A stretch of DNA of 47,443 nucleotides from a virus. Both the position numbers and the translations under genes were made by a program. The DNA lies in the IMG/VR virus record IMGVR_UViG_3300010430_000083, positions 1-47,443 of that record. One strand, 5' to 3'. The notes under the pieces were generated by a model, which ran no database searches, had not been told where the DNA came from, and was given only the letters and a program-made list of their open reading frames with translations. Below, one piece after another: positions 6,880 through 42,305 of this stretch (the stretch's first letter is position 1; each line of letters starts with the position of its first letter).

Positions 6880-6961
6880 TTTATTTACGGTTTAAAAAGT
6901 GATTTACGTCACTTGCAAAATGACCTTCAACGTATCGCAGATATGAGTAGTTTATTTACGG
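6880..6961 (+). repeat. Direct repeat pair and small hairpin at the left edge of the cassette array
   Basis: tttatttacgg occurs at 6880-6890 and again at 6951-6961. Between them is a 6-bp hairpin, aagtga (6897-6902) with tcactt (6909-6914). No gene is seen in 6864-6981. The segment also holds the first left core of the attC-like array (6919-6931). Confidence 0.5.
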
Positions 6962-7131
6962 ATTAATAAAAACTTAAAATAATGACAAGAGAAGAAATTA
7001 AAAAACAATGGGAATTAGAATTTGGTGTTAAATATGAAGATTACCAAAGAGCGAACGTTTATACAGCAGTAGATATATTGGACTTTGCAGAAAGTATAGT
7101 GAATAAATTACTTATATCTGGTGTTAGCAAT
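6919..7131 (+). repeat. attC-like site A1 (loop contains the start of the next gene)
   Basis: The left core AATGACCTTCAAC (6919-6931) is followed by left stem 6938-6951 (CAGATATGAGTAGT). It pairs with right stem 7107-7120 (ATTACTTATATCTG): 14 bp, of which two are G-T. The right core GTTAGCAAT is at 7123-7131 and is complementary to the next left core at 7236-7244. The loop holds the ATG at 6982; the right arm is inside that gene, with GTT as an in-frame codon. The left core has no partner upstream, so this is the left edge of the array. Confidence 0.72.
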
Positions 7132-7236
7132 AACGAAGTGGCGTTAAAGGCTTTTATTGAGGAATATGTAGAAGCGTTTGAAGATGGGCAAGGAAGCGAC
7201 ACAGCACTTTATAGACAAGCTAAAAGCCTTTTATGA
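6982..7236 (+). CDS. Hypothetical protein crossed by an attC-like right core
   Basis: An 84-residue acidic helical protein (MTREEIKKQWELEFGVKYED...). The first 47 residues are encoded in the loop and right arm of site A1. From codon 48 (GTT, 7123) the sequence belongs to the following 122-bp cassette-like unit, which closes at 7244. The frame is open across the junction in phase 0. Function unknown. Either the gene is a natural fusion of an N-terminal and a C-terminal module, or the hairpin lies in the gene for another reason. Confidence 0.65.
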   Translation: MTREEIKKQWELEFGVKYEDYQRANVYTAVDILDFAESIVNKLLISGVSNNEVALKAFIEEYVEAFEDGQGSDTALYRQAKSLL

Positions 7237-7370
7237 TTGCTAACTTTACTTGTATATGAATAGTACGTATAAATAAATAGTAAATTTGGATTAATAATTA
7301 AATATAATAAAAATGGAAAAAGTAAGGACAAAAAAAGTAAGTAAGTATTTTTTATATACGTTGTTATGTG
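7236..7370 (+). repeat. attC-like site A2
   Basis: The left core ATTGCTAAC (7236-7244) overlaps the stop of the upstream gene. The left stem GTATATGAA (7252-7260) pairs with TTTATATAC (7351-7359), 9 bp with one G-T. The right core GTTATGTG (7363-7370) is complementary to CACATAAC at 7549-7556. The ~90-nt loop contains a -7-like TAAATTTG (7281-7288) and the ATG at 7313. This is one of the shorter stems of the set. Confidence 0.6.
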
Positions 7371-7537
7371 TATGTTGTTTTGTGGTGGTTTATGCTATCG
7401 GTTGGCTTATAAGCTTAGACCCTTTGTGGTTTGTTGAAATGACAACAAATGCTACAGGTCGTGGCGCATTGCTAATGGTTGGGGTGTTAACAATTGTTTT
7501 ATGTTATGTAACAAGTTTGCTATTTGAAATTGAATAG
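7313..7537 (+). CDS. Small membrane protein, two transmembrane segments
   Basis: A 74-residue protein. A basic N-terminus (KVRTKKVSK) is followed by a transmembrane segment at ~12-34 and a second at ~53-70. The short loop DPLWFVEMTTNATGRG lies between. It is an inner-membrane protein of unknown role. Its start lies in the loop of site A2 and its first membrane segment is encoded across the right arm. Here the GTT core (7363) is out of codon phase, unlike the other crossing genes. Confidence 0.65.
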   Translation: MEKVRTKKVSKYFLYTLLCVCCFVVVYAIGWLISLDPLWFVEMTTNATGRGALLMVGVLTIVLCYVTSLLFEIE

Positions 7538-7548
7538 CAAAATAATTA

Positions 7549-7729
7549 CACATAACTCGCAACGTATATGCCTCGTGGATGCGTAGCATACACAGTAGAG
7601 GCTATGGCTACGTATCTATTAGGTATATACATTGTTGGTGGTGCGTTTTGTAAGCGTACTCGTTTAACTTAATAAATAATAAATGACCTTAGTTGATGTG
7701 TAGACATACGTTGCGAGTTGAAGGTCATT
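7549..7729 (+). repeat. attC-like site A3 with a second right arm
   Basis: The left core CACATAAC (7549-7556) is complementary to the right core of A2. The left stem 7564-7587 pairs with 7607-7630: 24 positions, one true mismatch and four G-T pairs. The right core GTTGGTG is at 7634-7640. About 75 nt later a second right arm, ATACGTTGCGAGTT (7706-7719), is an exact complement of AACTCGCAACGTAT (7554-7567). Its core GTTGAAGGTCATT (7717-7729) is the one that matches the next left core. The region 7538-7740 holds no gene. Confidence 0.8.
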
Positions 7730-7740
7730 GAGCAAAAAAA

Positions 7741-7842
7741 GTGAAATATTTAAAAATTATGTGTTGTACAATAATATTATTAATAGTATTTATTATTTGG
7801 ATAAAACCTATAATAGATGATTGGGAAGATAGAAATTTTTAA
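7741..7842 (+). CDS. Small single-span membrane peptide (GTG start)
   Basis: A 33-residue peptide read from GTG at 7741, just after an A-rich stretch that suits Bacteroidota translation. One hydrophobic segment (CCTIILLIVFIIWI) is followed by a charged tail (DDWEDRNF). It is the only reading frame in the cassette-like unit 7717-7880, which supports it being the cargo. An ATG at 7759 is an alternative start. Confidence 0.45.
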   Translation: MKYLKIMCCTIILLIVFIIWIKPIIDDWEDRNF

Positions 7843-7867
7843 TTGTTTCTTTTTGCGTTGCTTGCAC

Positions 7868-7936
7868 AATGACCTTCAACGGGATGCAGCTATGAGCAGT
7901 ATCCCGAAGGGTATTGCTTATAGGTGCTGTTGTGTG
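7868..7936 (+). repeat. attC-like site A4
   Basis: The left core AATGACCTTCAAC (7868-7880) is an exact complement of 7717-7729 and identical to the left core of A1. The stem 7886-7905 pairs with 7909-7927 (TATGAGCAGTA against TATTGCTTATA), nearly continuous with a 3-nt loop. The right core GTTGTGTG (7929-7936) is complementary to the left core of A5. This is the most compact site of the set. Confidence 0.75.
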
Positions 7937-8044
7937 TCTGTGGGCGGTGATTTAGCACTAAACTTCATTTGGAATACTGAACCAAAAAAGAAAAAAGGGA
8001 AGGGGAAAACTTTACAGAGTACCCAATCAAATAAATCTAATACA

Positions 8045-8353
8045 ATGAAAGTATTAACGGAAGGTCATAAGTACCAATTAAGCGGATTTGAGAACGCTGA
8101 AAACACTCAAGAAATTCAATTCATTGAGAAAACGCCAATTGAAGGCACAACCGAATTGAAAACGGTAAATGATGGAACAACCAACGAGGAACTTCTTGAA
8201 GTCTTAATTGACCGAATGAACTACTTACAAGGAAAATTCCCTTGCCGTGAAAACGCAATTGTAATTACCAAACTTCAAGAATCTTTGATGTGGCTCGAAA
8301 AGAGAACCGCAGATAGAAAGAAACGAAATGTTGAGGGGAAGCAATTAGCTTAA
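8045..8353 (+). CDS. Acb2/Tad1-like hairpin-domain protein, candidate anti-CBASS/anti-Thoeris sponge
   Basis: A 102-residue protein from ATG 8045; an open frame continues upstream to 7817 through site A4 but looks non-coding. The N-terminal ~60 residues are soluble and Thr/Glu-rich. The C-terminal part (LIDRMNYLQGKFPCREN, then AIVITKLQESLMWLEKRTADRKKRNVEG) matches a family common in Bacteroidota, often misannotated as ABC transporter ATPase. Its REnAxxxTKLqEsxMWL helix fits the Acb2/Tad1 hairpin domain. Known members bind cyclic nucleotide signals and blunt CBASS or Thoeris defence. It is the sole gene in the cassette 7929-8438. Family fit is good; activity is inferred. Confidence 0.68.
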   Translation: MKVLTEGHKYQLSGFENAENTQEIQFIEKTPIEGTTELKTVNDGTTNEELLEVLIDRMNYLQGKFPCRENAIVITKLQESLMWLEKRTADRKKRNVEGKQLA

Positions 8354-8430
8354 TGGTTATGTGAGCGTGGGCTTTTTCTTTTTTGATTATTAGCAGAAAT
8401 GTTGATTTGAAAAACGGAATTAGCCCATTG

Positions 8431-8610
8431 CACACAACGCAACCTGTGTATGGCGACGGATGGCGCAGCCATACGAGAGAGCCATAAATGCGCCATCTGC
8501 GCTATACACATTGTTATGTCTACGTTGACTAGCGGTAAGAACAAAATAAAATAAATATTAACAAACCACTGCCAGATGGTCGTATCTACAGGTTGCGTTA
8601 TGGCTAATTG
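8431..8610 (+). repeat. attC-like site A5 with a second right arm
   Basis: The left core is CACACAAC (8431-8438). The left stem 8445-8466 (TGTGTATGGCG..) pairs with 8490-8510 over 21 bp, with two G-T pairs and one unpaired A, like an extrahelical base in attC sites. The right core GTTATGT is at 8513-8519. A second right arm, ACAGGTTGCGTT (8588-8599), is an exact complement of AACGCAACCTGT (8436-8447). Its core GTTATGGCTAATTG (8597-8610) matches the next left core. No gene is seen in 8354-8632. Confidence 0.8.
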
Positions 8611-8632
8611 AGCAGACAAAGGAATAATTAAA

Positions 8633-8794
8633 ATGGAAAAATTAACAAACTACGTCGTAGACCATTTTGGTCAATTACATTATAAAAGCTCTGTACTTGA
8701 TAATAAGATATATCCTGTGTATGGCATAGGTCGTTATGGTCTACTTCACGGAAAAAAAGCTGATAAAAACAAAGTTGATTATTATGAACTATGA
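8633..8794 (+). CDS. Small hypothetical protein
   Basis: A 53-residue protein (MEKLTNYVVDHFGQLHY...) with several Gly and Tyr residues (YPVYGIGRYGLLHGKK), ending in EL. Probably a small beta-rich fold. An A-rich stretch precedes its ATG. It is cargo of the cassette between cores 8597-8610 and 8823-8837. No family is recognised. Confidence 0.55.
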   Translation: MEKLTNYVVDHFGQLHYKSSVLDNKIYPVYGIGRYGLLHGKKADKNKVDYYEL

Positions 8795-8870
8795 TTTTAA
8801 TTATTTGGATGCGTCCGATAGGCAATTAGCCTACAACGGTGTGGGTATGGTTAGAAAATTTAACGATTAA
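8784..8870 (+). CDS. Possible 28-residue peptide overlapping the previous gene
   Basis: An ATG at 8784, inside the end of the preceding gene, opens MNYDFNYLDASDRQLAYNG... and stops at 8870. It runs through the left core of site A6. The composition looks protein-like (AsxAspArg-Gln-Leu-Ala), but length and overlap make it uncertain. Confidence 0.3.
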   Translation: MNYDFNYLDASDRQLAYNGVGMVRKFND

Positions 8871-9039
8871 ATAAAAGAAAATGATTAAAGTAAAAAAGTT
8901 ATCAGAAGATTTAAAGATTAACTATCCAAATATGGATTATCAAATAATACTTAATGGTGAAAAACGATATTTTACAGAAAAAGCTATAATTGAACTACGG
9001 ACTAAGTTAAATTTATTAACTATACCCGATGTTGTAGAG
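8823..9039 (+). repeat. attC-like site A6 (loop contains the start of the next gene)
   Basis: The left core CAATTAGCCTACAAC (8823-8837) is complementary to 8597-8610, with one base offset. The left stem 8843-8860 (GGGTATGGTTAG..) pairs with 9010-9027 (..TTAACTATACCC): 18 positions with two G-T pairs and one mismatch. Three bases later the right core GTTGTAGAG (9031-9039) is complementary to 9150-9158. The right arm lies inside the gene 8881-9147 and GTT is an in-frame codon. Confidence 0.78.
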
Positions 9040-9147
9040 CCGAAGGGAAAGTTAGTTTGTGATAGATGTGGTTCTGATAAGTTAGAGGATTGTTGTAATA
9101 ATGAATATGCTTGTGAAGATTGCGGACATTTCCCCATCACAAACTAA
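8881..9147 (+). CDS. Small zinc-ribbon protein crossed by an attC-like right core
   Basis: An 88-residue protein. Residues 1-50 are an unrecognised alpha-beta module encoded in the loop of site A6. From codon 51 (GTT, 9031) the C-terminal module carries a zinc ribbon, CDRCGSDKLEDCC...YACEDCG. The module boundary coincides with the hairpin's GTT core in codon phase 0. The zinc-ribbon half is therefore exactly the cargo of the cassette 9031-9158. Function unknown; nucleic-acid binding is plausible. Confidence 0.68.
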   Translation: MIKVKKLSEDLKINYPNMDYQIILNGEKRYFTEKAIIELRTKLNLLTIPDVVEPKGKLVCDRCGSDKLEDCCNNEYACEDCGHFPITN

Positions 9148-9149
9148 TT

Positions 9150-9280
9150 CTCTACAACTGACACGTATATGAGCCGTTGGATATGTCTAAAACTTAATAA
9201 ATTAGACAAAGTTAGACATTATTTAGACGAACTTTTAGACGAACAATGACCTAAAATGGCTTATATACATTGTTAACTAC
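9150..9280 (+). repeat. attC-like site A7 with TTAGAC repeats in its loop
   Basis: The left core CTCTACAAC (9150-9158) is followed by left stem GTATATGAGCCGTT (9165-9178). It pairs with AATGGCTTATATAC (9255-9268): 14 bp, two G-T. The right core GTTAACTAC (9272-9280) is complementary to 10456-10464. The 76-nt loop has four TTAGAC units (9202, 9212, 9223, 9235) at 10-12-nt spacing, and an 8-bp inverted repeat ATGTCTAA/TTAGACAT. The region 9148-9414 holds no gene. Confidence 0.75.
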
Positions 9281-9351
9281 TGTTATTTTGAGCGTTGGCA
9301 AATGGCGATAGCCAAATATTTACAAAGTTTTTGAATTATTTTACTTTTTTA

Positions 9352-9383
9352 TTTGTGTATATCGTATATATGTTATATATTTG
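9352..9383 (+). promoter_or_regulatory. Strong-consensus promoter inside a cassette
   Basis: TTTG at 9352-9355, a 20-nt spacer, then TATATTTG at 9376-9383, a full match to the Bacteroidota consensus. It lies 31 nt before the ATG at 9415 and would drive the five small genes of the cassette 9272-10464. Confidence 0.75.
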
Positions 9384-9414
9384 TATCAGTTAAGAACAAC
9401 AAAAAACAAATATT

Positions 9415-9582
9415 ATGGAAACTGTAAAAAACATTTTAAGAAGCGGATTAGCAAACAAAGGAAACGGATTTAAAATTACTTTATCTGAATTAGTTGAAAA
9501 ATCTAAAATGGATGAAGTTGAAGTTATTATAGCTCTAAATACAATAACACAATGGAACGCATGGGATATGATAAAAGACTAA
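9415..9582 (+). CDS. Small hypothetical protein
   Basis: A 55-residue protein (METVKNILRSGLANKGNGFKITLSELVEKS..) with a Gly-rich turn, then two helices and a conserved-looking NTITQWNAWDMI end. It is the first gene after the consensus promoter at 9352-9383. No family is recognised. Confidence 0.6.
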   Translation: METVKNILRSGLANKGNGFKITLSELVEKSKMDEVEVIIALNTITQWNAWDMIKD

Positions 9583-9755
9583 AAAATTGGAATGATGCAA
9601 AAACAAAAAAACCTGATACAGAAAAAAAGTATCGGGTTTTAATTGACTGCGATGGAATTATTAAAGAGTCAGAATGTACTTATTTTATAAATAAAAAAAG
9701 ATTTCATTTTGATATGAATCATATAAATTGGAAAGTAATAAAATGGAAAAAATAA
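9561..9755 (+). CDS. Small DUF551-like protein
   Basis: About 64 residues from ATG 9561; an ATG at 9552 is also possible and both overlap the previous gene. The pattern NWNDAKTKKPDTEKKYRVLIDCDGIIKES...FHFDMNHINWKVIKWKK follows the DUF551 layout: opening Trp, P-x-x-x-x-x-V-L strand, closing W-K-V-x-x-W. DUF551 proteins are small phage cargo of unknown function. Confidence 0.5.
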   Translation: MGYDKRLKNWNDAKTKKPDTEKKYRVLIDCDGIIKESECTYFINKKRFHFDMNHINWKVIKWKK

Positions 9756-9922
9756 ATTACACTATATTAAACATAAAATATAATTACTCTGATTTTGAAG
9801 GTGATTATGTTGCAATTACTACACAATTAGGTAGTAAGACTAATATAATAAAAATAAGTTACGAATTAGCAGTTAGTTCAGGTTTTATAAATCCTAACGC
9901 ATTAAAACAATATAACATATAA
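9743..9922 (+). CDS. Hypothetical protein
   Basis: A 59-residue protein from ATG 9743; an ATG at 9728 in the same frame would overlap the previous gene further. Beta-rich (INYTILNIKYNYSDFEGDYVAITTQLGSK), acidic to neutral. It overlaps the previous gene by 13 nt, suggesting coupling. No family is recognised. Confidence 0.55.
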   Translation: MEKINYTILNIKYNYSDFEGDYVAITTQLGSKTNIIKISYELAVSSGFINPNALKQYNI

Positions 9923-9937
9923 TAAAAACACGAAATA

Positions 9938-10315
9938 ATGGATGATAATATAAAATATATGCTAGAACAATTAGGTAAGCAAAAAACTGAAAGAGATAGA
10001 CAACTATGTTTATTTAATTGGATTAAGTGCGGAACAATAGGATTTAAAGAACATCAAGAGTTAATTAAGTATTTGGTTATACCTAATGATAAAGCACTTA
10101 CATTTAGATTTAGTGATTGGATAAAAATAAAAGAAGAGTTACCGCCTTTTGATGTTCAAGTACTAACATGGAATGAAGTTGATGGTATTGAGCCAGCAAA
10201 AACAGACATGCTAAAGGCTGTGGTTAAAAACAGTAAAGGCATTACCTATGAATGGTACGGAAACAGCTATCCTACACATTGGATGAAACTACCTGAAACA
10301 CCTTTAGATAATTAA
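9938..10315 (+). CDS. DUF551-domain phage protein
   Basis: A 125-residue protein. Residues 1-60 form a helical N-domain. Residues ~63-122 are a DUF551 domain: DWIKIKEELPPFDVQVLTWNE opens it and THWMKLPETPLDN closes it. The family is common in tailed phages and prophages and has no established biochemical role. It sits in a multi-gene cassette with a consensus promoter. Confidence 0.7.
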   Translation: MDDNIKYMLEQLGKQKTERDRQLCLFNWIKCGTIGFKEHQELIKYLVIPNDKALTFRFSDWIKIKEELPPFDVQVLTWNEVDGIEPAKTDMLKAVVKNSKGITYEWYGNSYPTHWMKLPETPLDN

Positions 10316-10321
10316 ATTAAC

Positions 10322-10453
10322 ATGAGAAAATTAATTGATATAAAAGAAGAGGACGTGCAACCATTAAAGATATTAGCGGTTAAAGCAAACAAAGACTTAA
10401 AAAACTACATACAGGACGTATTGAGTGAGCACGTGTTGAAGGCAAAAAAATAA
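10322..10453 (+). CDS. Small ribbon-helix-helix-like protein
   Basis: A 43-residue protein. One strand (KLIDI) is followed by EEDVQPLKILAVKANKDLKNYIQDVLSEHV, the strand-helix-helix pattern of RHH regulators and antitoxins. No toxin partner is visible next to it. It would bind DNA as a dimer, perhaps regulating the promoter at 9352-9383; that is inference. It ends 2 nt before the left core of site A8. Confidence 0.5.
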   Translation: MRKLIDIKEEDVQPLKILAVKANKDLKNYIQDVLSEHVLKAKK

Positions 10454-10455
10454 TT

Positions 10456-10693
10456 GTAGTTAACGGATTTGTATATGATTAGATTTTAACGGGTTAAAAA
10501 ACAGAAATTATGAATGGTAAAGTAAAAGAATTAATAGAATTGTACGAAGCAATTTTACACGGTACAAATAAAAGCATTGGATTATTTGACTGCTATGACA
10601 CTTATTACTCTGGGTGTTGGGATGAGGAACTAAAGAAAGTGGAAAATTTGAAACAAGAATTAGTTAAAAATTAATTATATACATAGTTGTGTG
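10456..10693 (+). repeat. attC-like site A8 (a complete gene lies in the loop)
   Basis: The left core GTAGTTAAC (10456-10464) is an exact complement of 9272-9280. The left stem TGTATATGATTA (10470-10481) pairs with TAATTATATACA (10672-10683): 12 bp, one G-T. The right core is GTTGTGTG (10686-10693). The ~190-nt loop contains the whole gene 10510-10674, whose stop codon is the first triplet of the right stem. Confidence 0.7.
10510..10674 (+). CDS. Small hypothetical protein enclosed by a hairpin
   Basis: A 54-residue protein: helix KELIELYEAILHG, central DCYDTYYSGCWDEELKK, helix end. It lies between the arms of site A8 and its TAA is part of the right stem. Function unknown. A gene fully inside an attC-like loop is rare; the minus-strand gene 30288-30470 has the same arrangement. 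Confidence 0.55.
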   Translation: MNGKVKELIELYEAILHGTNKSIGLFDCYDTYYSGCWDEELKKVENLKQELVKN

Positions 10694-10801
10694 CCGAAAG
10701 GCTTGTAGTATTGTTGGTAGCAACGCAATTACGCTTTAAATAAGGAACTGGCTTAAGACAGATATTTAATTGTAAACAAATAGACTTAGCCAACAATATT
10801 A
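10694..10801 (+). other. Gene-free cassette with internal inverted repeats
   Basis: Between right core 10686-10693 and left core 10802-10809 no convincing reading frame is present. TAGTATTGTTGG (10706-10717) pairs with CCAACAATATTA (10790-10801) over 12 bp with one G-T. A small GCC-GAAA-GGC hairpin lies at 10693-10702. It may be an RNA-coding or empty cassette. Confidence 0.45.
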
Positions 10802-10871
10802 CACACAACGAATGGTAATATGGTTAAGCGATAGCGACCCGATAGGGTTAACTATATTACGTGTTGTACAC
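10802..10871 (+). repeat. attC-like site A9
   Basis: The left core CACACAAC (10802-10809) is complementary to 10686-10693. The left stem GTAATATGGTTAA (10815-10827) pairs with TTAACTATATTAC (10848-10860): 13 bp, one G-T. The right core GTTGTACAC (10863-10871) is an exact complement of 11760-11768. The loop is 20 nt. The 99 nt after it (10872-10970) hold no gene. Confidence 0.77.
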
Positions 10872-10970
10872 TGTATGGCGACTTAACAGAACGAAACTTA
10901 GACCGAAGCACAGAACTTAGTATTTATTTTTTTGTGCGGTGGCAAATATTAATTTGAAAAATTAAAACTT

Positions 10971-11681
10971 ATGAAATACTTAGGAAGTAAAAACAGAATT
11001 GCAAAGCATATACTACCAATAATGCTTGAATACAGAACACCTGAAATGACTTGGGTTGAGCCTTTTGTTGGTGGGGCTAATATGATTGATAAGGTTGAAG
11101 GTAAAAGAATAGGTGCAGACCTAAATGAATACCTGATTGAAGCACTAATATTGATTAGGGATAACCCCGAAAAAATACCTGACTTAATAACAGAGGATGA
11201 CTACCAAAAACTAAAGCAAGAAATGAAAGTTGATGGACTTACAGGATTTACTGGATTTGCAATGAGTTTTGGTGGTAAATTTTTTGGTGGATACAGAAGA
11301 GATGTAGCTGGAACAAAAGGCTGCATTGAAAATATGAAAACGCAGACCCGAAGAAGTAAACAAAACGCCATTAAACAAAGTAAGAACTTAAAAGGTGTGA
11401 AACTTATTAATTGTAGCTATGATGAACTGCCACTGAATAGTGATAACTGTTTGATTTATTGTGACCCACCATACGAAGGAACTACAAGCTACCGAGATGG
11501 GTTTGACCACACTAAATTCTGGAACTGGTGCAGAGAAATGAGTGATAGAGGACACATTGTTTTTATTAGTGAATACAACGCACCTAATGACTTTAAATGT
11601 GTATGGCAAAAAGAGGTAGCTACCACAATAAGTAAACAGAAAGGAAAGAAGGATATTGAAAAACTTTTTATTGCCCCATAA
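10971..11681 (+). CDS. dam: D12-class DNA adenine-N6 methyltransferase
   Basis: A 236-residue Dam-like methylase of nearly full family length. The N-terminal MKYLGSKNRIAKHIL opens the AdoMet fold. Motif I is VEPFVGGANM at 29-38 and the catalytic DPPY lies near residue 165 in LIYCDPPYEGTTSY. A target-recognition insert lies between. Phage orphan methylases usually protect phage DNA from host restriction, or mimic host Dam marks. No restriction enzyme partner is visible. It is the sole gene of the cassette bounded by cores 10863-10871 and 11760-11768. Specificity (GATC or other) cannot be read from sequence. Confidence 0.85.
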   Translation: MKYLGSKNRIAKHILPIMLEYRTPEMTWVEPFVGGANMIDKVEGKRIGADLNEYLIEALILIRDNPEKIPDLITEDDYQKLKQEMKVDGLTGFTGFAMSFGGKFFGGYRRDVAGTKGCIENMKTQTRRSKQNAIKQSKNLKGVKLINCSYDELPLNSDNCLIYCDPPYEGTTSYRDGFDHTKFWNWCREMSDRGHIVFISEYNAPNDFKCVWQKEVATTISKQKGKKDIEKLFIAP

Positions 11682-11759
11682 GGGCAAAAGAGGGAAGGAA
11701 AAAATAAATACGGTATGATTAGCACTAACCTTGATACGAGGACGGAGCTAAGCCATATT

Positions 11760-11898
11760 GTGTACAACGCTAACGTGTATGGTGACGTTGCGACAAATGA
11801 ATTATTATGAAACAATTTAAATATTTAGGAATTAACGATATGGGAAAAACGACCACAAGTACAAAAGAGCAATGCGCTATACACAATGTTGTTGATAG
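11760..11898 (+). repeat. attC-like site A10 (loop contains the start of the next gene)
   Basis: The left core is GTGTACAAC (11760-11768). The left stem GTGTATGGTG (11775-11784) pairs with CGCTATACAC (11875-11884): 10 bp including two G-T. The right core GTTGTTGATAG (11888-11898) pairs 9 of 11 with 12086-12096. The loop holds the ATG at 11807; GTT at 11888 is an in-frame codon of that gene. It is shorter and less certain than the other sites. The region 11682-11806 holds no other gene. Confidence 0.62.
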
Positions 11899-12082
11899 TG
11901 CTTTATGGAAAGACGAAAAGCACAGCCATTTTTGGGTTGAAGATGGCGAACTATACGAAAGTTATAATACTATTAGAGGTTTACGTTATAGACACAGACT
12001 TTCTGTAAATGGCGTAGCGGATTGTGATAACTGCCCTTTGGATATGTTACTGTATATAGTAAAAGAGTACATAGAAGATTAA
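11807..12082 (+). CDS. Hypothetical protein crossed by an attC-like right core
   Basis: A 91-residue protein. Residues 1-27 come from the loop and right arm of site A10 and contain STKEQCAIHNVV. From codon 28 (GTT) the C-terminal module (LWKDEKHSHFWVEDGELYESYNT..., CDNCP) is the cargo of the cassette 11888-12096. The N-terminal motif recurs in the minus-strand gene 29794-30018 as STKKQCDIHVV, with an unrelated C-terminal part. Function unknown. Confidence 0.62.
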   Translation: MKQFKYLGINDMGKTTTSTKEQCAIHNVVDSALWKDEKHSHFWVEDGELYESYNTIRGLRYRHRLSVNGVADCDNCPLDMLLYIVKEYIED

Positions 12083-12085
12083 GCA

Positions 12086-12222
12086 TTATCTACAACGGAA
12101 TTGTGTATGGTATGTTGCGTATAAGTACACGGAAATTATCGGATTAAAAACTAAAAAAATTAATAATAACAAGCCTTTAAAATAGCAATAAGTAGCAATA
12201 GATTATACACGTTGTTATATAC
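12086..12222 (+). repeat. attC-like site A11
   Basis: The left core is TTATCTACAAC (12086-12096). The left stem GTGTATGGTATGTTGC (12103-12118) pairs with GCAATAGATTATACAC (12195-12210): 16 positions with three G-T and one mismatch. The right core GTTATATAC (12214-12222) is an exact complement of 12446-12454. The 76-nt loop has no gene. Confidence 0.78.
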
Positions 12223-12248
12223 TGTGGCGGTTTTAAAACAAAAACATT

Positions 12249-12440
12249 ATGAAAATTGAAATACCTAAAAAATACGAAAACGTTGAAATAAATAGCGAAA
12301 ATTGGTTTATAGCCAAGAGTTCTACTGACTTAATAAAAGTACAATTACCTAAGCCTAAAAAAATATGGTGGGTAGATGGATATACCGTTTATGACACTTA
12401 TTTTGAAGTAACACTTGTTGATGGTAAACAAAAACGTTAG
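12249..12440 (+). CDS. Small hypothetical protein
   Basis: A 63-residue, beta-rich basic protein (MKIEIPKKYENVEINSENWF...KPKKIWWVDGYTVYDTYFEVTLV). No known family. It is the only gene in the last cassette, between cores 12214-12222 and 12446-12454. Confidence 0.6.
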   Translation: MKIEIPKKYENVEINSENWFIAKSSTDLIKVQLPKPKKIWWVDGYTVYDTYFEVTLVDGKQKR

Positions 12441-12445
12441 CCATT

Positions 12446-12454
12446 GTATATAAC
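12446..12454 (+). repeat. Right end of the cassette array (left core without a partner hairpin)
   Basis: GTATATAAC is an exact complement of the right core 12214-12222 and so closes the last cassette. The following AAC-TAGGA-TTATG resembles a left arm, but no matching right arm is seen before the packaging genes. The array seems truncated here. The region 12455-12578 holds only the promoter at 12536-12565. Confidence 0.6.
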
Positions 12455-14504: not shown

Positions 14505-15173
14505 ATGACTTATAAAGAGAAAGATATAATTGCTTTACTTAAACAACACTCAGAAGATACTGAACAGTGGATTAAGAACGCAAGAAAAGAACATAAGACA
14601 CTTAACGCTCTTGTAACAGGTAAAGACTTCCACGAAGAGTTAATAGAGCGCATTGAACATTTAGAGAGTGCCGACCGTGCAAAAGTAAGAGAGAAATATT
14701 CTAAAGATATTAGAGATTTATTCGATAGAGTAATGAAGAAGCGACAAAATGTATTTGATGCTTCGGGTGGTTCAGAGAGTTACGATATATCAAGCGATAA
14801 AATAAAAGAAGAGTTTGAAGAATATCTATCAAGTTTTAAGTCTAACAAATCACTTTATAAATATCTTTCCGAGGCTTATTTTCAACTAACAGATATTGAC
14901 CCTAACGGAATTATAATGTTAGAGTATCAAACAGAACCAGACGTTAAGTTATATCCTGTTTATAAATGCATTGATGATATAAGATACTACAAGTCTAACG
15001 GTCAATTAGTAGATTACATAGTTTTTGAACCAGAGATACACGAAGATACTTTAGTGAAAAAGTGGCGTTTTATTGATGACGCTAAGGATTACACATTTAT
15101 AGAGGTTGCAGGGGAATTTACATTAGATACTGATAACACGTTTGAACATCCGTTTGGAAAGTCCCTGTATTAA
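14505..15173 (+). CDS. Portal protein, N-terminal part (gene interrupted by a frameshift)
   Basis: 222 residues, ending early in EHPFGKSLY. The sequence continues sensibly in the -1 frame: one extra A in the run 15158-15160 would give HPFGKVPVLILSERVKIGSEERYSPIDKV and a portal of about 551 residues. The N-terminal part is helical and acidic and lies directly after TerL, the standard portal position. Because a portal is essential, the break is most likely a homopolymer base-call error, but a real mutation or a programmed slip at GGA-AAG cannot be excluded. Confidence 0.72.
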   Translation: MTYKEKDIIALLKQHSEDTEQWIKNARKEHKTLNALVTGKDFHEELIERIEHLESADRAKVREKYSKDIRDLFDRVMKKRQNVFDASGGSESYDISSDKIKEEFEEYLSSFKSNKSLYKYLSEAYFQLTDIDPNGIIMLEYQTEPDVKLYPVYKCIDDIRYYKSNGQLVDYIVFEPEIHEDTLVKKWRFIDDAKDYTFIEVAGEFTLDTDNTFEHPFGKSLY

Positions 15174-16159
15174 TTCTTTCAGAGCGTGTTAAAATAGGCT
15201 CAGAAGAACGTTATAGTCCTATCGATAAAGTTACACAGTTAGCAAAAGATTACGCAAGAGATAAGAGTGTGCTAACTATTTACAAATTTCAAAAGGGTGC
15301 GCCTCTACATTGGCGTTATGGTTCTGTTAAGTGTAAAGACTGTAACGGACTAGGTAAGACAGGTAATAATACCTGTACTACTTGCGACGGAAAAGGACAA
15401 CCAAGGAAAGTAGATGTTTCAGATGTAAATTACATTCCTGTACCAAAAGAGGGGCAACCATTTATAGGCGACAAAATAGGTGGTTTTATTAGTCCAGATT
15501 TAGACACTTGGAAGCAATACAAAGAAGATTTAAGGGATGCAGAAATATTAATCGATGATACGATTTGGGGAACTGATAAAACGCATTACGACAATAAATC
15601 AAACGAAACTGCAACAGGTCGTTATATAGATGTTCAACCAATAATGAACACTTTAAACGCTTATAGTGACGTTGTTGAGTATGTATATAACACTTTAGCT
15701 AATTGGACGCTAAATTTTATCGACCAAACAAAAAACAAAGACGAAGTGGAATATACACGCTCTTTTGGTCGTAACTATATTATTGAAAGTCCAGACGTAT
15801 TAACCGAAAGATACAACAAGTCTAAAGCAGGTGGGGATAACAATACAATATTAGACAAGCAATTAGAAGAGATTATATTATCTAAGTATAAATCAGACCC
15901 TATAATGCAATCTAAGATGCTTAAAAAAGCTAAAGTAGAGCCTTATGTGCATTTATCAACAAAAGAGGTGTATGATTTTTTTGGTGCTATTGAAGCTAAT
16001 AAAAAAGTATTGTTTCAGAAGTTCTGGCAAGAAGCGGACAAAGACAAAAAAGTAGAACAGTTAGATAAGGAATTTAACGAGTATTTTAATAGTAATAATT
16101 TAATAACAAATGAAAGCAGCACAAAAGAGAAGGCTACTGACGAAGAACAGGGACAATGA
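15161..16159 (+). CDS. Portal protein, C-terminal part, with DnaJ-like zinc motif
   Basis: Continuation of the portal in the -1 frame, with no start codon needed if one base is missing upstream (GTG 15269 is the first candidate start). It contains a double CxxCxGxG zinc motif (CKDCNGLGK and CTTCDGKG, about 15332-15400), as in the DnaJ cysteine-rich domain; this is unusual in a portal. Downstream come the clip/stem-like helical region and a charged C-terminus. It overlaps the next gene by 50 nt. Confidence 0.72.
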   Translation, partial: VPVLILSERVKIGSEERYSPIDKVTQLAKDYARDKSVLTIYKFQKGAPLHWRYGSVKCKDCNGLGKTGNNTCTTCDGKGQPRKVDVSDVNYIPVPKEGQPFIGDKIGGFISPDLDTWKQYKEDLRDAEILIDDTIWGTDKTHYDNKSNETATGRYIDVQPIMNTLNAYSDVVEYVYNTLANWTLNFIDQTKNKDEVEYTRSFGRNYIIESPDVLTERYNKSKAGGDNNTILDKQLEEIILSKYKSDPIMQSKMLKKAKVEPYVHLSTKEVYDFFGAIEANKKVLFQKFWQEADKDKKVEQLDKEFNEYFNSNNLITNESSTKEKATDEEQGQ

Positions 16160-29723: not shown

Positions 29724-29751
29724 CAAATTATTTTTTATTTAAAATTTACAA
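29724..29751 (-). promoter_or_regulatory. Possible minus-strand promoter for the 24-residue peptide
   Basis: On the minus strand, TTG (29751-29749), an 18-nt spacer, then TAATTTG (29730-29724). The -33 element is part of the right core of site B4. A partial match only. Confidence 0.35.
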
Positions 29752-29801
29752 CTCAGTATATACGCCATACAAGTACAGGCGAATATACGGTAGTTAGCAA
29801 A
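29744..29801 (-). repeat. attC-like site B4 (minus strand)
   Basis: On the minus strand, the left core TTTGCTAAC (29801-29793) includes the stop of the gene 29794-30018 and is an exact complement of the right core 29967-29959. The stem 29788-29778 pairs with 29766-29756: 10 of 11 positions, 11-nt loop. The right core is GTTGTAAAT (29752-29744). No closing core is seen further on, so this is the end of the island. Confidence 0.62.
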
Positions 29802-30018
29802 CATTTAAAGCGTCACACATCGATTGTGCTTGTTTTCTAACTCTGTCTAAATCCACATTATCCATTGTGTACATATGACATACTACATATTTTTCATTCT
29901 CATTTACAATGGTTATTTGCGTGTAATCGAATAAGTCTATGTCTACAACTTTAAACGATTTGCTAACAACGTGTATATCACATTGCTTTTTTGTGCTTAA
30001 TTCTTTGTTATTTTCCAT
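29794..30018 (-). CDS. Hypothetical protein crossed by an attC-like right core
   Basis: A 74-residue protein. The N-terminal MENNKELSTKKQCDIHV comes from the loop of site B3. From codon 18 (GTT, G at 29967) the C-terminal module (SKSFKVVDIDLFDYTQITIVNENEKYVVCHMY...) is cassette cargo closing at 29793. STKKQCDIHVV parallels STKEQCAIHNVV of 11807-12082. The C-terminal part is beta-rich; function unknown. Confidence 0.65.
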   Translation of the reverse strand: MENNKELSTKKQCDIHVVSKSFKVVDIDLFDYTQITIVNENEKYVVCHMYTMDNVDLDRVRKQAQSMCDALNVC

Positions 30019-30101
30019 TTTTTATTTGTTTAATTATTAAAATTTTCTGTTTATTTACTCGCAACGTGGCATACACAACAACGTTATATAAAATAAAAGT
30101 T
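29959..30101 (-). repeat. attC-like site B3 (minus strand; loop contains the start of the next gene)
   Basis: On the minus strand, the left core AACTTTTATTTTATATAAC (30101-30083) pairs 17 of 19 with the right core of B2. The left stem GTGTATGCCACGTTG (30076-30062) pairs with CAATGTGATATACAC (29985-29971): 15 positions, two G-T and one mismatch. Three bases later the right core GTTAGCAAA (29967-29959) is complementary to B4. The loop contains the ATG at 30018, and the second GTT (29967) is in codon phase. Confidence 0.75.
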
Positions 30102-30530: not shown

Positions 30531-30836
30531 TTAAAAACTATGATAGTATTCTTCATACATTTCTAAAACTTCATTTAACGTTATGTATTCATCGCCTATT
30601 TTATAAATTTGGTTATTTGGTTTTTGTATTTTTAAATGTTTCTTCCATTCATCATAAGGTAAAGGTTCTTTTGTAGTTTTTAACTGTTCCCTTTGGCAAC
30701 CAACATCACCTATAAGTAATTGCTTTTTATGGTATTCTTTTGCGAATTCAGTTATTAATATTTTACCATATTTTAAAATATCTTCATTATCTAATTCGCT
30801 ATTTTTTATTTTTAAAACTATTTTATCTAAGTCCAT
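30531..30836 (-). CDS. Hypothetical protein crossed by an attC-like right core
   Basis: A 101-residue protein. Residues 1-44 (MDLDKIVLKIKNSELDNED...EYHKKQLLIGD) come from the loop of site B1. From codon 45 (GTT, 30704) the C-terminal module (GCQREQLKTTKEPLPYDEWKKHLK...EVLEMYEEYYHSF) is cassette cargo. The part YHKKQLLIGDVG parallels LHEKQLRICGVV of 41976-42257. Function unknown. Confidence 0.65.
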   Translation of the reverse strand: MDLDKIVLKIKNSELDNEDILKYGKILITEFAKEYHKKQLLIGDVGCQREQLKTTKEPLPYDEWKKHLKIQKPNNQIYKIGDEYITLNEVLEMYEEYYHSF

Positions 30837-30892
30837 TTTTGTTAAGTTTAATTATTAATCCAAGCAACTACGCATAGCTGTAAACCGTTGTA
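30696..30892 (-). repeat. attC-like site B1 (minus strand; loop contains the start of the next gene)
   Basis: On the minus strand, the left core TACAAC ends at 30887. The left stem TATGCGTAGTTGCTT (30876-30862) pairs with AAGCAATTACTTATA (30725-30711): 15 positions, two G-T and one mismatch. The right core GTTGGTTGC (30704-30696) is an exact complement of 30528-30520, in codon phase inside the gene 30531-30836. The 16-mer gcaactacgcatagct (30864-30879) recurs at 42293-42308 in site C1. Confidence 0.7.
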
Positions 30893-31057: not shown

Positions 31058-32662
31058 ATGATAGATTATTCTTTTCTTAAATTAAGTGACAGTATTGCAG
31101 ACGCTCAAAAAATGGGCGACTCGCCTATTGTTACACACTATAATTTAAGCTCTATACAATTATTACCCGATAGAGCGTATTTACAAATAACTAATTTTAA
31201 CGGTGGTATATCACTAGATAGTGACTGCGAGGTGTTTGTAGTTGATTGCAATGACAATGTTTTAGCAGACATTACCGATAATGTGTTTATAGAAGAGTTC
31301 ACGGACAGCAACGGTAACAATCAATGTAAAATTGAGTACATTAATCTAGGCGTAGACTTTTACAGGCAAACGGTACAAATTAAGTTTGATATGTTAGCGA
31401 GTGATGCGGTGTTTTATACAAATCCAATTAACATAACGGCTTACCAAGCCAATGAAACGGTATATTTTGAGTATAGAAATTACGACGACTTTAAAGGAAT
31501 AGGATATACAAACGCAAACGTTTATCAATCTATTTCTTTACGAATGTGGTTTGATATACCTATTGATAAGACAGAGGTTCAGGATAATTTATTAATAAGT
31601 AGAGGGTATACGATTAGTACAAGGGCATTAATGAAACTGTTTGAGCGTTACCAAGTGGACTATATTAATCGATTTACTTTCGATAGGCTTAATGTATTAT
31701 TAAAACATGAGCTAATCTATTTAGACGGTGTAAGAGTTACTAACAAGCCTGTTGTTAGCTCAGAAGATAGAGAGGGCGATAGTAATTTCTTTGTTACTAA
31801 TTTTGAGGTTGCTAAAAACTACAACGACACTAAATTATATAGTTACCAAATTTACGAAGGTTTTGGGTATATTTCATTCATTCCTAGCGGTTACAATGTT
31901 AACTGTAACGGTATTTCACAATTAAGAGTTTCATTTAACGGAAACATTGAGTTAAAAACAGGATTTATAAGAGTATATGATAGTAGTGATACTTTAATTG
32001 ATACGTTTACACAGGATGATATGTATGTTGCTGGTGGTGGTTTGTATGTTGACACTATTGGTAGTGCTTTTGAAAATCCTGCAAACGGTGATTATTATTT
32101 CTATGTTAGCGGTGGTTTAGTAGAGTCTATATTTAACGAGCCTAACGAGTCAATATACGATAACACAACGTGGACGTTAACGATTAGTGAGGGTGACTAT
32201 TCAAGTGACGACTATTCAGATGATTATTTGGTTGGTTGTTCTGGTGAAAGTTTAGGGGCTGAGTTGATTACTAACGGTGACTTCTCTTCAAGTGGTACGC
32301 CAGTGGCTAACTCATGGGCTTTAGGTTGGGGTTCTGGAAACACGGGTAAGATTATAGAAGATGGTGTATTGAAAATGACTAGAATAACATCGGATTGCAC
32401 GGTTTCGCCGACAAACGGTGTTGATTCTTATAACGTAATAGAATTAGGTAAAGATTATAAGCTTGTTTATGAGGTAGTTTCAAATGATGATTCCGCGGAC
32501 ATAAGAATATATTATAATTCTACATTTAATTCGGTAAATAACACGGTAGGGACGCATACTATTTATTTCACTAACACAGGCGACACATTTTTAGTGTTTG
32601 AAAATAACACAGACGGAACGTTAATAGAGTTAGACAATATTAGTTTAAAAGAAGTATTATAA
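31058..32662 (+). CDS. Tail appendage protein with C-terminal carbohydrate-binding-like domain
   Basis: 534 residues. The N-terminal ~360 residues are beta-rich virion-type sequence (HYNLSSIQLLPDRAYLQITNFNGGI...). An acidic Ser/Asp linker (YSSDDYSDDYLVGCSGES) leads to a C-terminal jelly roll (residues ~397-534) of the CBM4/9-like type: LGAELITNGDFSSSGTP...YNVIELGKDYKLVYEV...LDNISLKEV. It probably links the tail tip to fibres and binds surface glycans. First gene of the adsorption cluster. Confidence 0.68.
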   Translation: MIDYSFLKLSDSIADAQKMGDSPIVTHYNLSSIQLLPDRAYLQITNFNGGISLDSDCEVFVVDCNDNVLADITDNVFIEEFTDSNGNNQCKIEYINLGVDFYRQTVQIKFDMLASDAVFYTNPINITAYQANETVYFEYRNYDDFKGIGYTNANVYQSISLRMWFDIPIDKTEVQDNLLISRGYTISTRALMKLFERYQVDYINRFTFDRLNVLLKHELIYLDGVRVTNKPVVSSEDREGDSNFFVTNFEVAKNYNDTKLYSYQIYEGFGYISFIPSGYNVNCNGISQLRVSFNGNIELKTGFIRVYDSSDTLIDTFTQDDMYVAGGGLYVDTIGSAFENPANGDYYFYVSGGLVESIFNEPNESIYDNTTWTLTISEGDYSSDDYSDDYLVGCSGESLGAELITNGDFSSSGTPVANSWALGWGSGNTGKIIEDGVLKMTRITSDCTVSPTNGVDSYNVIELGKDYKLVYEVVSNDDSADIRIYYNSTFNSVNNTVGTHTIYFTNTGDTFLVFENNTDGTLIELDNISLKEVL

Positions 32663-39384: not shown

Positions 39385-39821
39385 AAACAATAAAAATAGT
39401 TAGGGATTGGCAAGACGAAAACCAAACTTTAGGTAAGTGTACCGTTTACGACGAGAATAACAAACCTATATTTAGTGCAATTAGTTTAGAGCGTGGTTGG
39501 CAGAATAATAAAAACAATGTTAGTTGCGTTCCGTTAGGTCGTTATCCTTTAATTTTAGAATATTCACCGAGATTTAAGCAAGATTTATGGGAACTTAAAA
39601 ATGTACCGAACAGAGCAGAGTGTAAATTTCATAGCGCTAATTATTGGTATCAATTAAACGGTTGTATAGCTTTAGGGCTTGAATTAAAGGATTTAAACAG
39701 CGACGGTTACAATGATGTAACTAATAGTAAAAAAACTATGAAAGCGTTTCACAATGCTTTAAAAGGCGAAAGTAGAGCGGAAATATTAATAATGCAGAAT
39801 AAAAACTGTGATTGTATGTAA
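39381..39821 (+). CDS. DUF5675-family protein
   Basis: 146 residues. VSCVPLGRYPLILEYSPRFKQDLWELKNVPNRAECKFHSANYWYQLNGCIALG matches the DUF5675 core, which has conserved His and Cys resembling an L,D-transpeptidase-like active site. Found in Bacteroidota phages near lysis genes; cell-wall activity is suspected but not established. Followed by a terminator and the holin-like genes. Confidence 0.68.
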   Translation: MKTIKIVRDWQDENQTLGKCTVYDENNKPIFSAISLERGWQNNKNNVSCVPLGRYPLILEYSPRFKQDLWELKNVPNRAECKFHSANYWYQLNGCIALGLELKDLNSDGYNDVTNSKKTMKAFHNALKGESRAEILIMQNKNCDCM

Positions 39822-41592: not shown

Positions 41593-41841
41593 CCTTAATT
41601 ACGTAGTTTAATCAGTTGTCTTAGCTATTTTAATAGAGCCTTGTATAGTTCCAAATGCACAACCAACAAATAATACCCAATGCCATCCGTGTTCAAATGT
41701 TCCGTTTACAAGGTCTATAATGTGTAAAGCTAATCCAGTTCCACATATAAAAAGTAGTATTATTCCCCAAATAAAAGTTCTTGTTTCTTTATTCATTTTT
41801 TATATATTTAATTATTAATATTCCTTAATTACGTAGTTTAA
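41593..41841 (-). repeat. 19-bp direct repeats flanking the two-span membrane gene
   Basis: ccttaattacgtagtttaa occurs exactly at 41593-41611 and 41823-41841, 230 bp apart. The first copy contains the stop codon of the gene 41608-41796 and the second is the right core of site C2. Such direct repeats could come from duplication on insertion, or allow loss of the gene by recombination. Confidence 0.6.
41608..41796 (-). CDS. Small membrane protein, two spans
   Basis: 62 residues. Spans at ~7-27 (TFIWGIILLFICGTGLALHII) and ~40-55 (WVLFVGCAFGTIQGSI), with a His/Trp-rich loop between. Cargo bounded by the 19-bp direct repeats. Function unknown. Confidence 0.6.
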   Translation of the reverse strand: MNKETRTFIWGIILLFICGTGLALHIIDLVNGTFEHGWHWVLFVGCAFGTIQGSIKIAKTTD

Positions 41842-41969
41842 CATCGTGTATAAAAAATAGCTTGTTAGGGCTTTATTAAAGGTTATTATTAATTTGTTGT
41901 TTATTATCTACAATTCTGTTGTTTTTGTTGTTTATACGCTACTTTTCATATACAATTACGTTGTAAGTA
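41833..41969 (-). repeat. attC-like site C2 (minus strand)
   Basis: On the minus strand, the left core TACTTACAAC (41969-41960) is an exact complement of 42137-42128. The left stem GTATATGAAAAGTAG (41953-41939) pairs with CTATTTTTTATACAC (41860-41846): 15 positions, two G-T and one mismatch. The right core is GTTAAACTAC (41842-41833). The ~78-nt loop has no gene; nor does 41797-41975 in general. Confidence 0.7.
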
Positions 41970-41975
41970 ATAAAA

Positions 41976-42257
41976 TTACTTCAATATTTTAACATCTTTT
42001 AAATTTTCGTACAATTCATTTAATTCTGTAAGTTTTTTTACTTCAACAACTTCTGTTTTTGTTGTTTTCATTTCTGTATGTCTAATGCTTACATATTTTA
42101 CATAAGTAACTAAGACAGTAATTTTACTACTTACAACACCACATATACGTAATTGCTTTTCGTGCAATTCTAAAATGTGTAGTAATTCATTTCTGTTCCA
42201 TTTACTTTGTTCTGTATGGTTTGGGCATACGTCTTTTAAAAATTCTTCGTTTGTCAT
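41976..42257 (-). CDS. Hypothetical protein crossed by an attC-like right core
   Basis: 93 residues. Residues 1-40 (MTNEEFLKDVCPNHTEQSKWNRNELLHILELHEKQLRICG) come from the loop of site C1. From codon 41 (GTT, 42137) the C-terminal module (SSKITVLVTYVKYVSIRHTEMK...) is cassette cargo closing at 41960. Function unknown. Confidence 0.62.
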   Translation of the reverse strand: MTNEEFLKDVCPNHTEQSKWNRNELLHILELHEKQLRICGVVSSKITVLVTYVKYVSIRHTEMKTTKTEVVEVKKLTELNELYENLKDVKILK

Positions 42258-42305
42258 TATTTCTTATTTATTAAGTTATTTTATAATTTAACGCAACTAC
42301 GCATA
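42128..42305 (-). repeat. attC-like site C1 (minus strand; loop contains the start of the next gene)
   Basis: On the minus strand, the left stem TATGCGTAGTTGC (42305-42293) pairs with GCAATTACGTATA (42156-42144), 13 bp with two G-T. The right core GTTGTAAGTA (42137-42128) is in codon phase and complementary to the left core of C2. The left core is poor: the stem is preceded by TTGAC rather than AAC, so the 5' edge is damaged. The stretch 42258-42396 has no other gene. Confidence 0.68.

Follow-up and report, generated by a model that had tools for sequence, protein, structure and literature searches.

Does a run of hairpins in a phage genome mark genes that travel as cassettes, and if so, what moves them? 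The question is raised by a stretch of viral DNA, IMG/VR record IMGVR_UViG_3300010430_000083, analyzed here over its whole length of 47,443 bases and called the window. It encodes terminase, portal, tape measure and virion proteins and a primase/helicase, and it is the genome of a virus that infects a marine bacterium; its terminase and the one of Flavobacterium phage 11b share 55% identity. Between its early genes and its packaging genes lies a series of eleven units, which an earlier note had read as an integron-like cassette array without an integrase. We consider it likely that the region is an array of site-specifically mobile cassettes, belonging to an integron-like system native to Bacteroidota, served in trans by a host integrase that lacks the I2 segment, and built as a mirror image of the host's own cassettes. 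The sites, the pairing of their cores, the covariation of their stems, the boundaries at AAC, the host integrase with its attI, and the contrast in gene orientation are seen in the sequences themselves.

Hairpin sites and the pairing of their cores

Each site is a hairpin lying between a left core with AAC and a right core with GTT; R' denotes the GTT core of a cassette and R'' the AAC core that closes the same cassette. All eleven hairpins of the earlier note were recovered by a motif scan, and all eleven of its R'/R'' pairs are present, at coordinates a few bases from those given there because the start of the core had been listed. The layout described there also holds, with a right-arm spacing that is stricter than was thought. 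The right arm reads TATA-N6-GTT at fixed spacing, the left arm measures 9 to 11 bases from AAC to ATG, and the distance from the conserved T of TATA to GTT is exactly 10 nucleotides in nine of the eleven sites. At the remaining two, starting at 7554 and 8436, an inner GTT (7634 and 8513) satisfies the 10-nucleotide rule, and the cassette's own R'' pairs with an outer GTT (7717 and 8597). The idea that the outer cores had been wrongly assigned as R' was dropped, as chromosomal relatives have the same composite form.

Pairing between the R' and R'' of one cassette is far stronger than chance. Own pairs total 103 matched bases, against 74.6 (standard deviation 4.9) when the cores were re-dealt, and none of 20,000 deals reached that total; the two cores of one and the same site, paired with each other, give only 70. 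Of 172 pairs of consecutive sites at loci other than the window, 114 contain a complementary run of at least 8 (shuffled mean 11, maximum 21), and 71 of the 172 match at 14 of 14 positions. One window pair, 8597/8835, is imperfect, with a run of 3 from GTT followed by an offset match.

The stems covary, as had been claimed. When 60 sites of chromosomal and phage origin are aligned, 97.3% of stem cells are paired and 11 of 16 pairs carry changes in both partners; the covariation score reaches 0.540, compared with 0.132 after shuffling, and sliding the partner by one to three columns leaves fewer than 48% of cells paired. Two stem pairs are G.U (G.T in DNA) in 59 of the 60 sequences, a feature on which the earlier note was silent. 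These invariant pairs are G.T on the strand that carries AAC and A.C mismatches on the other, and the AAC strand therefore folds better; its stem (top strand) is the more stable in 194 of 200 sites. There is no conserved bulge in the stem, and the two G.T pairs, rather than extrahelical bases, supply the strand asymmetry. Classical R boxes are rare among 302 sites (RYYYAAC in 7%, GTTRRRY in 5%), and the shorter cores YAAC and GTTR are general (98%).

The features of the array, all on the plus strand, are as follows.

6929..12454, plus: main cassette array, 11 units with limits at AA^C, defined by the R'/R'' pairing test and by AAC limits seen in relatives; AAC starts at 6929, 7242, 7554, 7878, 8436, 8835, 9156, 10462, 10807, 11766, 12094 and 12452
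6929..7125, plus: site 1, AAC 6929, GTT 7123; the open reading frame (ORF) 6982-7236 begins in its long loop
6982..7236, plus: cassette 1 ORF, 84 amino acids (aa), starting within the hairpin loop and spanning R'; no family
7242..7365, plus: site 2, AAC 7242, GTT 7363; covariance-model match 7234-7373
7313..7537, plus: cassette 2 ORF, 74 aa, start in the loop; site 2 and this start are 74% identical to chromosomal locus L263
7554..7719, plus: site 3, composite, AAC 7554, inner GTT 7634, outer R' GTT 7717; 82% identical to a Flavobacteriaceae chromosome over about 170 bp
7878..7931, plus: site 4, short hairpin, AAC 7878, GTT 7929; single-stranded DNA fold z = -4.8
8045..8353, plus: cassette 4 gene, Tad1-like (anti-Thoeris cyclic-nucleotide sponge family), 102 aa from M at 8045
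8436..8599, plus: site 5, composite, AAC 8436, inner GTT 8513, outer R' GTT 8597
8633..8794, plus: cassette 5 ORF, 53 aa
8835..9033, plus: site 6, AAC 8835, GTT 9031; ORF 8881-9147 begins in its long loop
8881..9147, plus: cassette 6 ORF, 88 aa; weakly zinc-ribbon-like cysteine pairs
9156..9274, plus: site 7, AAC 9156, GTT 9272
9417..10452, plus: cassette 7 genes, several ORFs, with a DUF551 protein at 9938-10315; the R' leader and last gene occur together in locus L262
10462..10688, plus: site 8, AAC 10462, GTT 10686; ORF 10510-10674 lies within the loop
10807..10865, plus: site 9, short hairpin, AAC 10807, GTT 10863; single-stranded DNA fold z = -3.4
10971..11681, plus: cassette 9 gene, D12-class (Dam-like) adenine methyltransferase (PF02086, E=2e-17)
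11766..11890, plus: site 10, AAC 11766, GTT 11888
11807..12082, plus: cassette 10 ORF, 91 aa, start in the loop, spanning R' in phase
12094..12216, plus: site 11, AAC 12094, GTT 12214; 73-80% identical to sites of several chromosomes, with matches that stop at R'' and R'
12249..12440, plus: cassette 11 ORF, 63 aa
12452..12480, plus: right end of the array, the last R'' AAC without a hairpin, then phage flank (AAC TAGGATTATG); tentatively, a possible degenerate attI-like acceptor

Immediately left of the first AAC, positions 6898-6931 (ACTTGCAAAATGACCTTCAAC) are identical to the R'' of cassette 3 at 19 of 21 bases, probably as the remnant of a lost cassette.

Cassette boundaries and gene orientation

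Sequence comparison places the cassette boundary at the AAC core and not at G/TT, where the earlier note had expected the junctions to fall. A 783-bp cassette that is 99.2% identical in Mangrovimonas and Echinicola contigs spans one AAC to the next, and a cassette duplicated inside the Mangrovimonas array, together with a third relative, has the same limits. Site pairs with homologous downstream genes also share the hairpin core in 13 of 17 cases, generally at similar identity; among site pairs with homologous upstream sequence, the core is mostly diverged or unrelated. The Cellulophaga phages phi19:3 and phi13:2 have in common a 369-bp cassette (366 of 369 bases identical), whose place in the array differs between the two and whose ends both fall at AAC, and phi19:3, phi13:2, phi18:3 and phi46:3 have a common right flank that starts exactly after AAC, next to four different left neighbors. 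These exact breakpoints lie between phages that are 95-98% identical. A crossover at AA^C, which is G^TT on the opposite strand, is an integron feature, and by these sequence comparisons the present system has it.

With the boundary at AAC, each phage gene has its site at the 5' end, not at the 3' end, and the site often includes the start codon. A unit running from one AA^C to the next would hold, in order, the hairpin (often with a ribosome-binding site and start codon), R' (GTT...), the gene, and its own R'' (...AA). Closed into a circle, such a cassette would bring R'' beside the hairpin, where its pairing with R' would rebuild a complete folded site; the best-folding strand, with its two conserved G.T pairs, would carry AA^C and would correspond to the recombinogenic bottom strand of attC. 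Genes that span R' were also considered as in-frame chimeras with an N-terminus from the preceding cassette; this was ruled out, since the AAC-to-AAC unit keeps genes whole.

Orientation was scored for units from AAC to AAC that were confirmed by R'/R'' pairing, using the longest ORF. Of 107 chromosomal cassettes, 102 have that ORF running opposite to the site, the classical integron arrangement, whereas in viral cassettes it runs with the site in 17 of 18 (7 of 7 in the window and 10 of 11 in other viral contigs, where two loci overlap and one cassette is counted twice). Many phage genes consequently begin inside the hairpin loop and span R', as seen at 13 of 41 viral sites against 18 of 261 chromosomal ones. 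Carrying its own translation start, a phage cassette should be expressible wherever it is inserted. Phage cassettes are also short, and they look like a pool separate from the chromosomal ones. The suggestion that the phage captured host cassettes is doubtful because of this opposite gene orientation.

By the definition of a cluster of attC sites lacking an integrase (CALIN), at least two sites within 4 kb and no integrase, the window qualifies with 11 sites and no tyrosine recombinase found among its coding content. An ordinary CALIN would hold classical cassettes, each a gene followed by a standard attC with a G/TT boundary, captured from bacterial integrons as in other phages. Seventeen phage CALINs have been reported, one of them in Polaribacter phage P12002L (Qi et al. 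2023, PMC9892861), and P12002L itself carries four sites of the present model, at 38028-39717 and 32226-32280; its P12002L_attC2, which may be one of these, recombines with IntI1 (PMC9892861). The R'/R'' pairing is moreover the same as in integrons. However, the AAC boundaries and the opposite sense of the genes contradict this account on both counts, the R boxes seldom take the classical form, and the partner integrases described below have no I2; we regard it as quite improbable.

The position of the hairpins in 5' regions, often enclosing start codons, would also suit RNA elements of small early genes (terminators, leaders or regulators), spread by homologous recombination of shared leader and trailer modules with no site-specific recombination, and leader and trailer sequences are indeed common to cassettes with different genes (contig L272 and P12002L, below). 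Yet the pairing of R' with its own R'' spans an entire gene, the breakpoints between closely related phages fall exactly at AAC, the same site stands at the 3' end of chromosomal genes beside an integrase and attI, and an Rfam scan returned no match. Such RNA elements are a highly improbable explanation.

Distribution of the sites and the host integrase

The mobile-cassette reading gains from the distribution of the sites, which belong to a system native to Bacteroidota chromosomes. An exact pattern for one arm matched at least 118 genome stretches, nearly all from Flavobacteriaceae or other Bacteroidota among the matches listed, and at least 50 of these stretches contain two or more sites. 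A covariance model built from the sites, as the earlier note had proposed, matches 108 of 121 Flavobacteriaceae genomes (89%), 58 of 118 genomes sampled across the phylum, and none of 81 control genomes (small genomes of another phylum). Phage records hold 36 sites (the 71-kb contig G012, which encodes a phage-type DNA transfer protein), 12, 8, 3, and 4 (P12002L).

Within the window, ten places match the model at E of about 0.001 or lower, three of which (9148, 11758 and 12086) were training sites; as it spans loops of about 90 bases, the model does not detect the three longest-looped sites. Independent matches include 30093-29957 on the minus strand (1.5e-16) and 41970-41832 (9e-14). These belong to minus-strand groups at about 30.9-29.7 kb and 42.3-41.8 kb that had not been mentioned before.

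30704..30889, minus: site, AAC at about 30889, GTT 30704; R' pairs with R'' 30522 (run of 9)
30836-30531, minus: ORF starting in the loop of that site
29965..30085, minus: site, AAC 30085, GTT 29967; R' pairs with R'' 29795 (run of 10)
30018-29794, minus: ORF starting in the loop of that site
29750..29795, minus: short site, AAC 29795, GTT 29752
42135..42305, minus: probable site, GTT 42137, ahead of ORF 42257-41976; weak model match (E=0.027), with R' 42137 pairing with R'' at 41962 (run of 16)
41840..41964, minus: site, AAC 41962, GTT 41842; model E=9e-14

A stretch resembling a leader (GGATTAATAATTAAATATAATAAAAATGG) is repeated just 5' of cassette ORFs on both strands, at 7270-7320, 30057-30011, 30863-30832 and 41819-41784; it is probably a shared translation start or promoter module.

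Genomes bearing arrays encode a tyrosine recombinase of 370-400 aa that is distinct from XerC and XerD. Searched with a profile, the 121 Flavobacteriaceae genomes separate this array-linked family (at least 265 bits) from the Xer proteins (at most 211). It occurs in 85 of the 108 genomes with sites and in 1 of the 13 without (Fisher p=7e-7). Relative to the site orientation adopted here, the gene is on the opposite strand, and its 3' end points toward the array. Among the catalytic residues, R, K, H, R and H never vary, and the tyrosine hardly does. The I2 insertion is absent from 19 of 19 array-linked integrases examined, there being 10 residues between the halves of the catalytic domain compared with about 55 in IntI4, and none of 15 genomes passed the TIGR02249 cut-off. 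A small tree joins the 19 in one group (92/88) and places IntI1 and a Vibrio IntIA on their side of the split from the flavobacterial Xers (100/99). The predicted core matches both XerA and IntI4, and the top-scoring model is NCBIfam NF040815, "XerA/integron integrase". The N-terminal 75 residues are predicted to form a small alpha/beta domain for which Pfam gives nothing significant; its best structural matches are archaeal XPB damage-recognition domains (HARP/XPB-like, probability 0.85), which at E of about 0.4 we take only as a lead.

Sixteen hosts have an array adjacent to the integrase. In most of them, 30 to 50 bases separate the R'' of the last cassette from the stop codon of the integrase gene. 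This R'' pairs with its own R' at 14 of 14 positions in 11 of the 16 and is followed in most by a candidate attI, AAC-nn-GTTATAT-n6-AATATA or a variant. The phage flank AAC-AAT-GTTATATAAC resembles it. Under the proposed mechanism, the host integrase would insert cassettes at an attI overlapping or just past its own 3' end, and the window phage, which encodes no recombinase, would exchange its own in trans through this array-linked relative of IntI without I2; catalysis by this enzyme, on a single strand, is what we infer. The earlier proposal of a host-encoded recombinase is probably right, the array-adjacent family being present in most Flavobacteriaceae.

Another recombinase or transposase, encoded by phages or of some other kind, might instead mobilize the phage arrays without a host integron-type integrase. 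The opposite orientation of phage and host cassettes would fit such a division, and in the Cellulophaga phages a tyrosine recombinase adjoins the array end. That enzyme was excluded as a member of the integron-like family: its resemblance is weak (17-40 bits), and it appears to be a phage integrase of the usual kind. No tyrosine recombinase is encoded in the window, one model with one asymmetry fits phage and host sites alike, and the acceptor in phages is similar to the host attI. We think a separate mobilizer unlikely.

Two side observations concern tyrosine recombinases. A small ORF is conserved in the Cellulophaga phages between the attI-like acceptor and the phage recombinase (L294, 4384-4656), and one Flavobacteriaceae genome (G134:C1) carries, dispersed along its chromosome, at least 8 tyrosine recombinases of 304 aa (about 207 bits) that are almost identical to one another, possibly a mobile element.

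Several points weigh against the preferred reading, that of mobile cassettes served by a host integrase. Recombination itself is deduced from sequence, none having been observed, and the boundary in the window phage derives from relatives and from L272, which has a homologous trailer without a homologous site. The reading accounts neither for the composite sites nor for the imperfect pairing of 8597 with 8835. The strand asymmetry is partly built in, as the motif scanner favored the first G.T pair (the second was not favored), and at most 27 candidates per genome were scored in the covariance-model search. Phylogeny explains part of the association between integrase and sites, and 23 genomes have sites without a recognized integrase. 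Finally, no window cassette has an identical copy in any host, the best matches being partial and 70-82% identical.

Cargo, known systems and significance

The cassette 4 ORF, from M at 8045, matches Tad1 structures (PDB 8kbb, E=2e-12), the Acb2/Tad1 hairpin domain PF24729 (E=2.8e-5) and phrog_2428 (E=1e-24), and its product is a probable decoy, or sponge, against bacterial immunity. Apart from cassettes 4, 7 and 9, no window cassette ORF was assigned to a family. The leader and trailer of the Tad1 cassette recur in Flavobacteriaceae contig L272 (G219:C66) around a methyltransferase-like ORF, and the leader of the cassette 9 methyltransferase recurs in P12002L ahead of a different methyltransferase. 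Since common leaders and trailers surround different genes, exchange of genes between conserved cassette ends also seems to occur. The combination of a Tad1-like sponge and a methyltransferase suggests an exchangeable counter-defense kit.

The surroundings of the array were also compared. The related contigs L007 and L008 have no array at the corresponding locus, and their divergence is too large for exact junctions. Megablast of the structural genes against phages, and a search of the array DNA against plasmids, gave no match. A small minus-strand gene at 42694-42502 is 91% identical to a gene just upstream of the packaging genes in L008, a different placement, so moving small genes are not confined to the array. 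The portal gene (14505-16159) consists of two ORFs in different frames, both matching phrog_7376, and L007 has a single open frame of 556 aa in that region; the split reflects a frameshift or an assembly error in the window record. A 214-aa ORF at 1756-2400 contains AP2, a domain often present in homing endonucleases, with a match that falls short of the curated cut-off (E=5.5e-6).

With sedentary chromosomal integrons the present system shares tandem cassettes, hairpin sites with a variable loop, R'/R'' pairing within the cassette, a YAAC/GTTR core, strand asymmetry and, in host chromosomes, an attI adjoining a tyrosine recombinase. It differs in an integrase that has no I2 and carries an extra N-terminal domain of about 75 aa, in stems with two G.T pairs instead of extrahelical bases, in R boxes that are mostly not RYYYAAC, in an attI at the 3' end of the integrase gene, and in an array that runs in the same direction as the integrase. 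We call it integron-like because its working and architecture are those of integrons while two usual defining features, an I2-bearing integrase and RYYYAAC boxes, fail. Of the earlier claim that the sites have the defining property of attC, the pairing stands; the R boxes and the integrase do not conform, and two G.T pairs occupy the place expected of extrahelical bases.

The phage CALINs of PMC9892861 are likewise arrays of sites without an integrase in lytic phages, rich in methyltransferase cargo, and P12002L is in both sets; unlike them, the present cassettes have genes that, seen from the crossover, run in the reverse of the classical sense, sites that belong to a model found in Bacteroidota, and Tad1 cargo. 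Archaeal XerA and Xer proteins resemble the present integrase in a core without I2 and in NF040815 as best model, but the latter is array-linked, groups with IntI and has the extra domain. CTX-type phages (integrative mobile elements exploiting Xer, IMEX, with dif-like hairpins) also have a single-stranded hairpin used by a tyrosine recombinase without I2, but they integrate a whole genome at the chromosomal dif and have no cassette array (PMC7790495). Single-strand elements of the IS200/IS605 or REP type are marked by a TnpA-type HUH transposase with guide tetranucleotides; the enzyme linked to the present arrays is a tyrosine recombinase.

IntegronFinder 2.0 found integrons nearly absent from Bacteroidota, with In0 elements and one complete integron, in Salinibacter (PMC9024848), it reported none in the genome of Tenacibaculum larymnensis (PMC10013915), and the taxon-specific attC models of Ghaly and colleagues include none for Bacteroidota (PMC8352920). 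Against this supposed rarity, the present model places sites in most sampled Flavobacteriaceae genomes. A literature search found no description of the system, with most subscription papers and preprints outside its reach, and its novelty is provisional for that reason.

A bolder reading, to which we give somewhat less than even credence, is that most Flavobacteriaceae harbor a second integron lineage. Its integrase would recombine single-stranded DNA hairpins without I2, and the added N-terminal domain, with its weak predicted-fold likeness to an XPB damage-recognition domain, would perhaps recognize structure; phages would exploit the lineage through mirror-image cassettes with start signals in the loop, trading counter-defense genes by means of the host enzyme. 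Integron integrases are held to have shifted from double- to single-strand recombination by gaining the I2 helix, a causal link for which direct proof is said to be lacking (PMC7790495). That question becomes testable with a relative that is linked to arrays, has no I2 and apparently acts on folded sites. For phages, the system would offer a concrete route by which small counter-defense genes may be swapped singly between unrelated phages.

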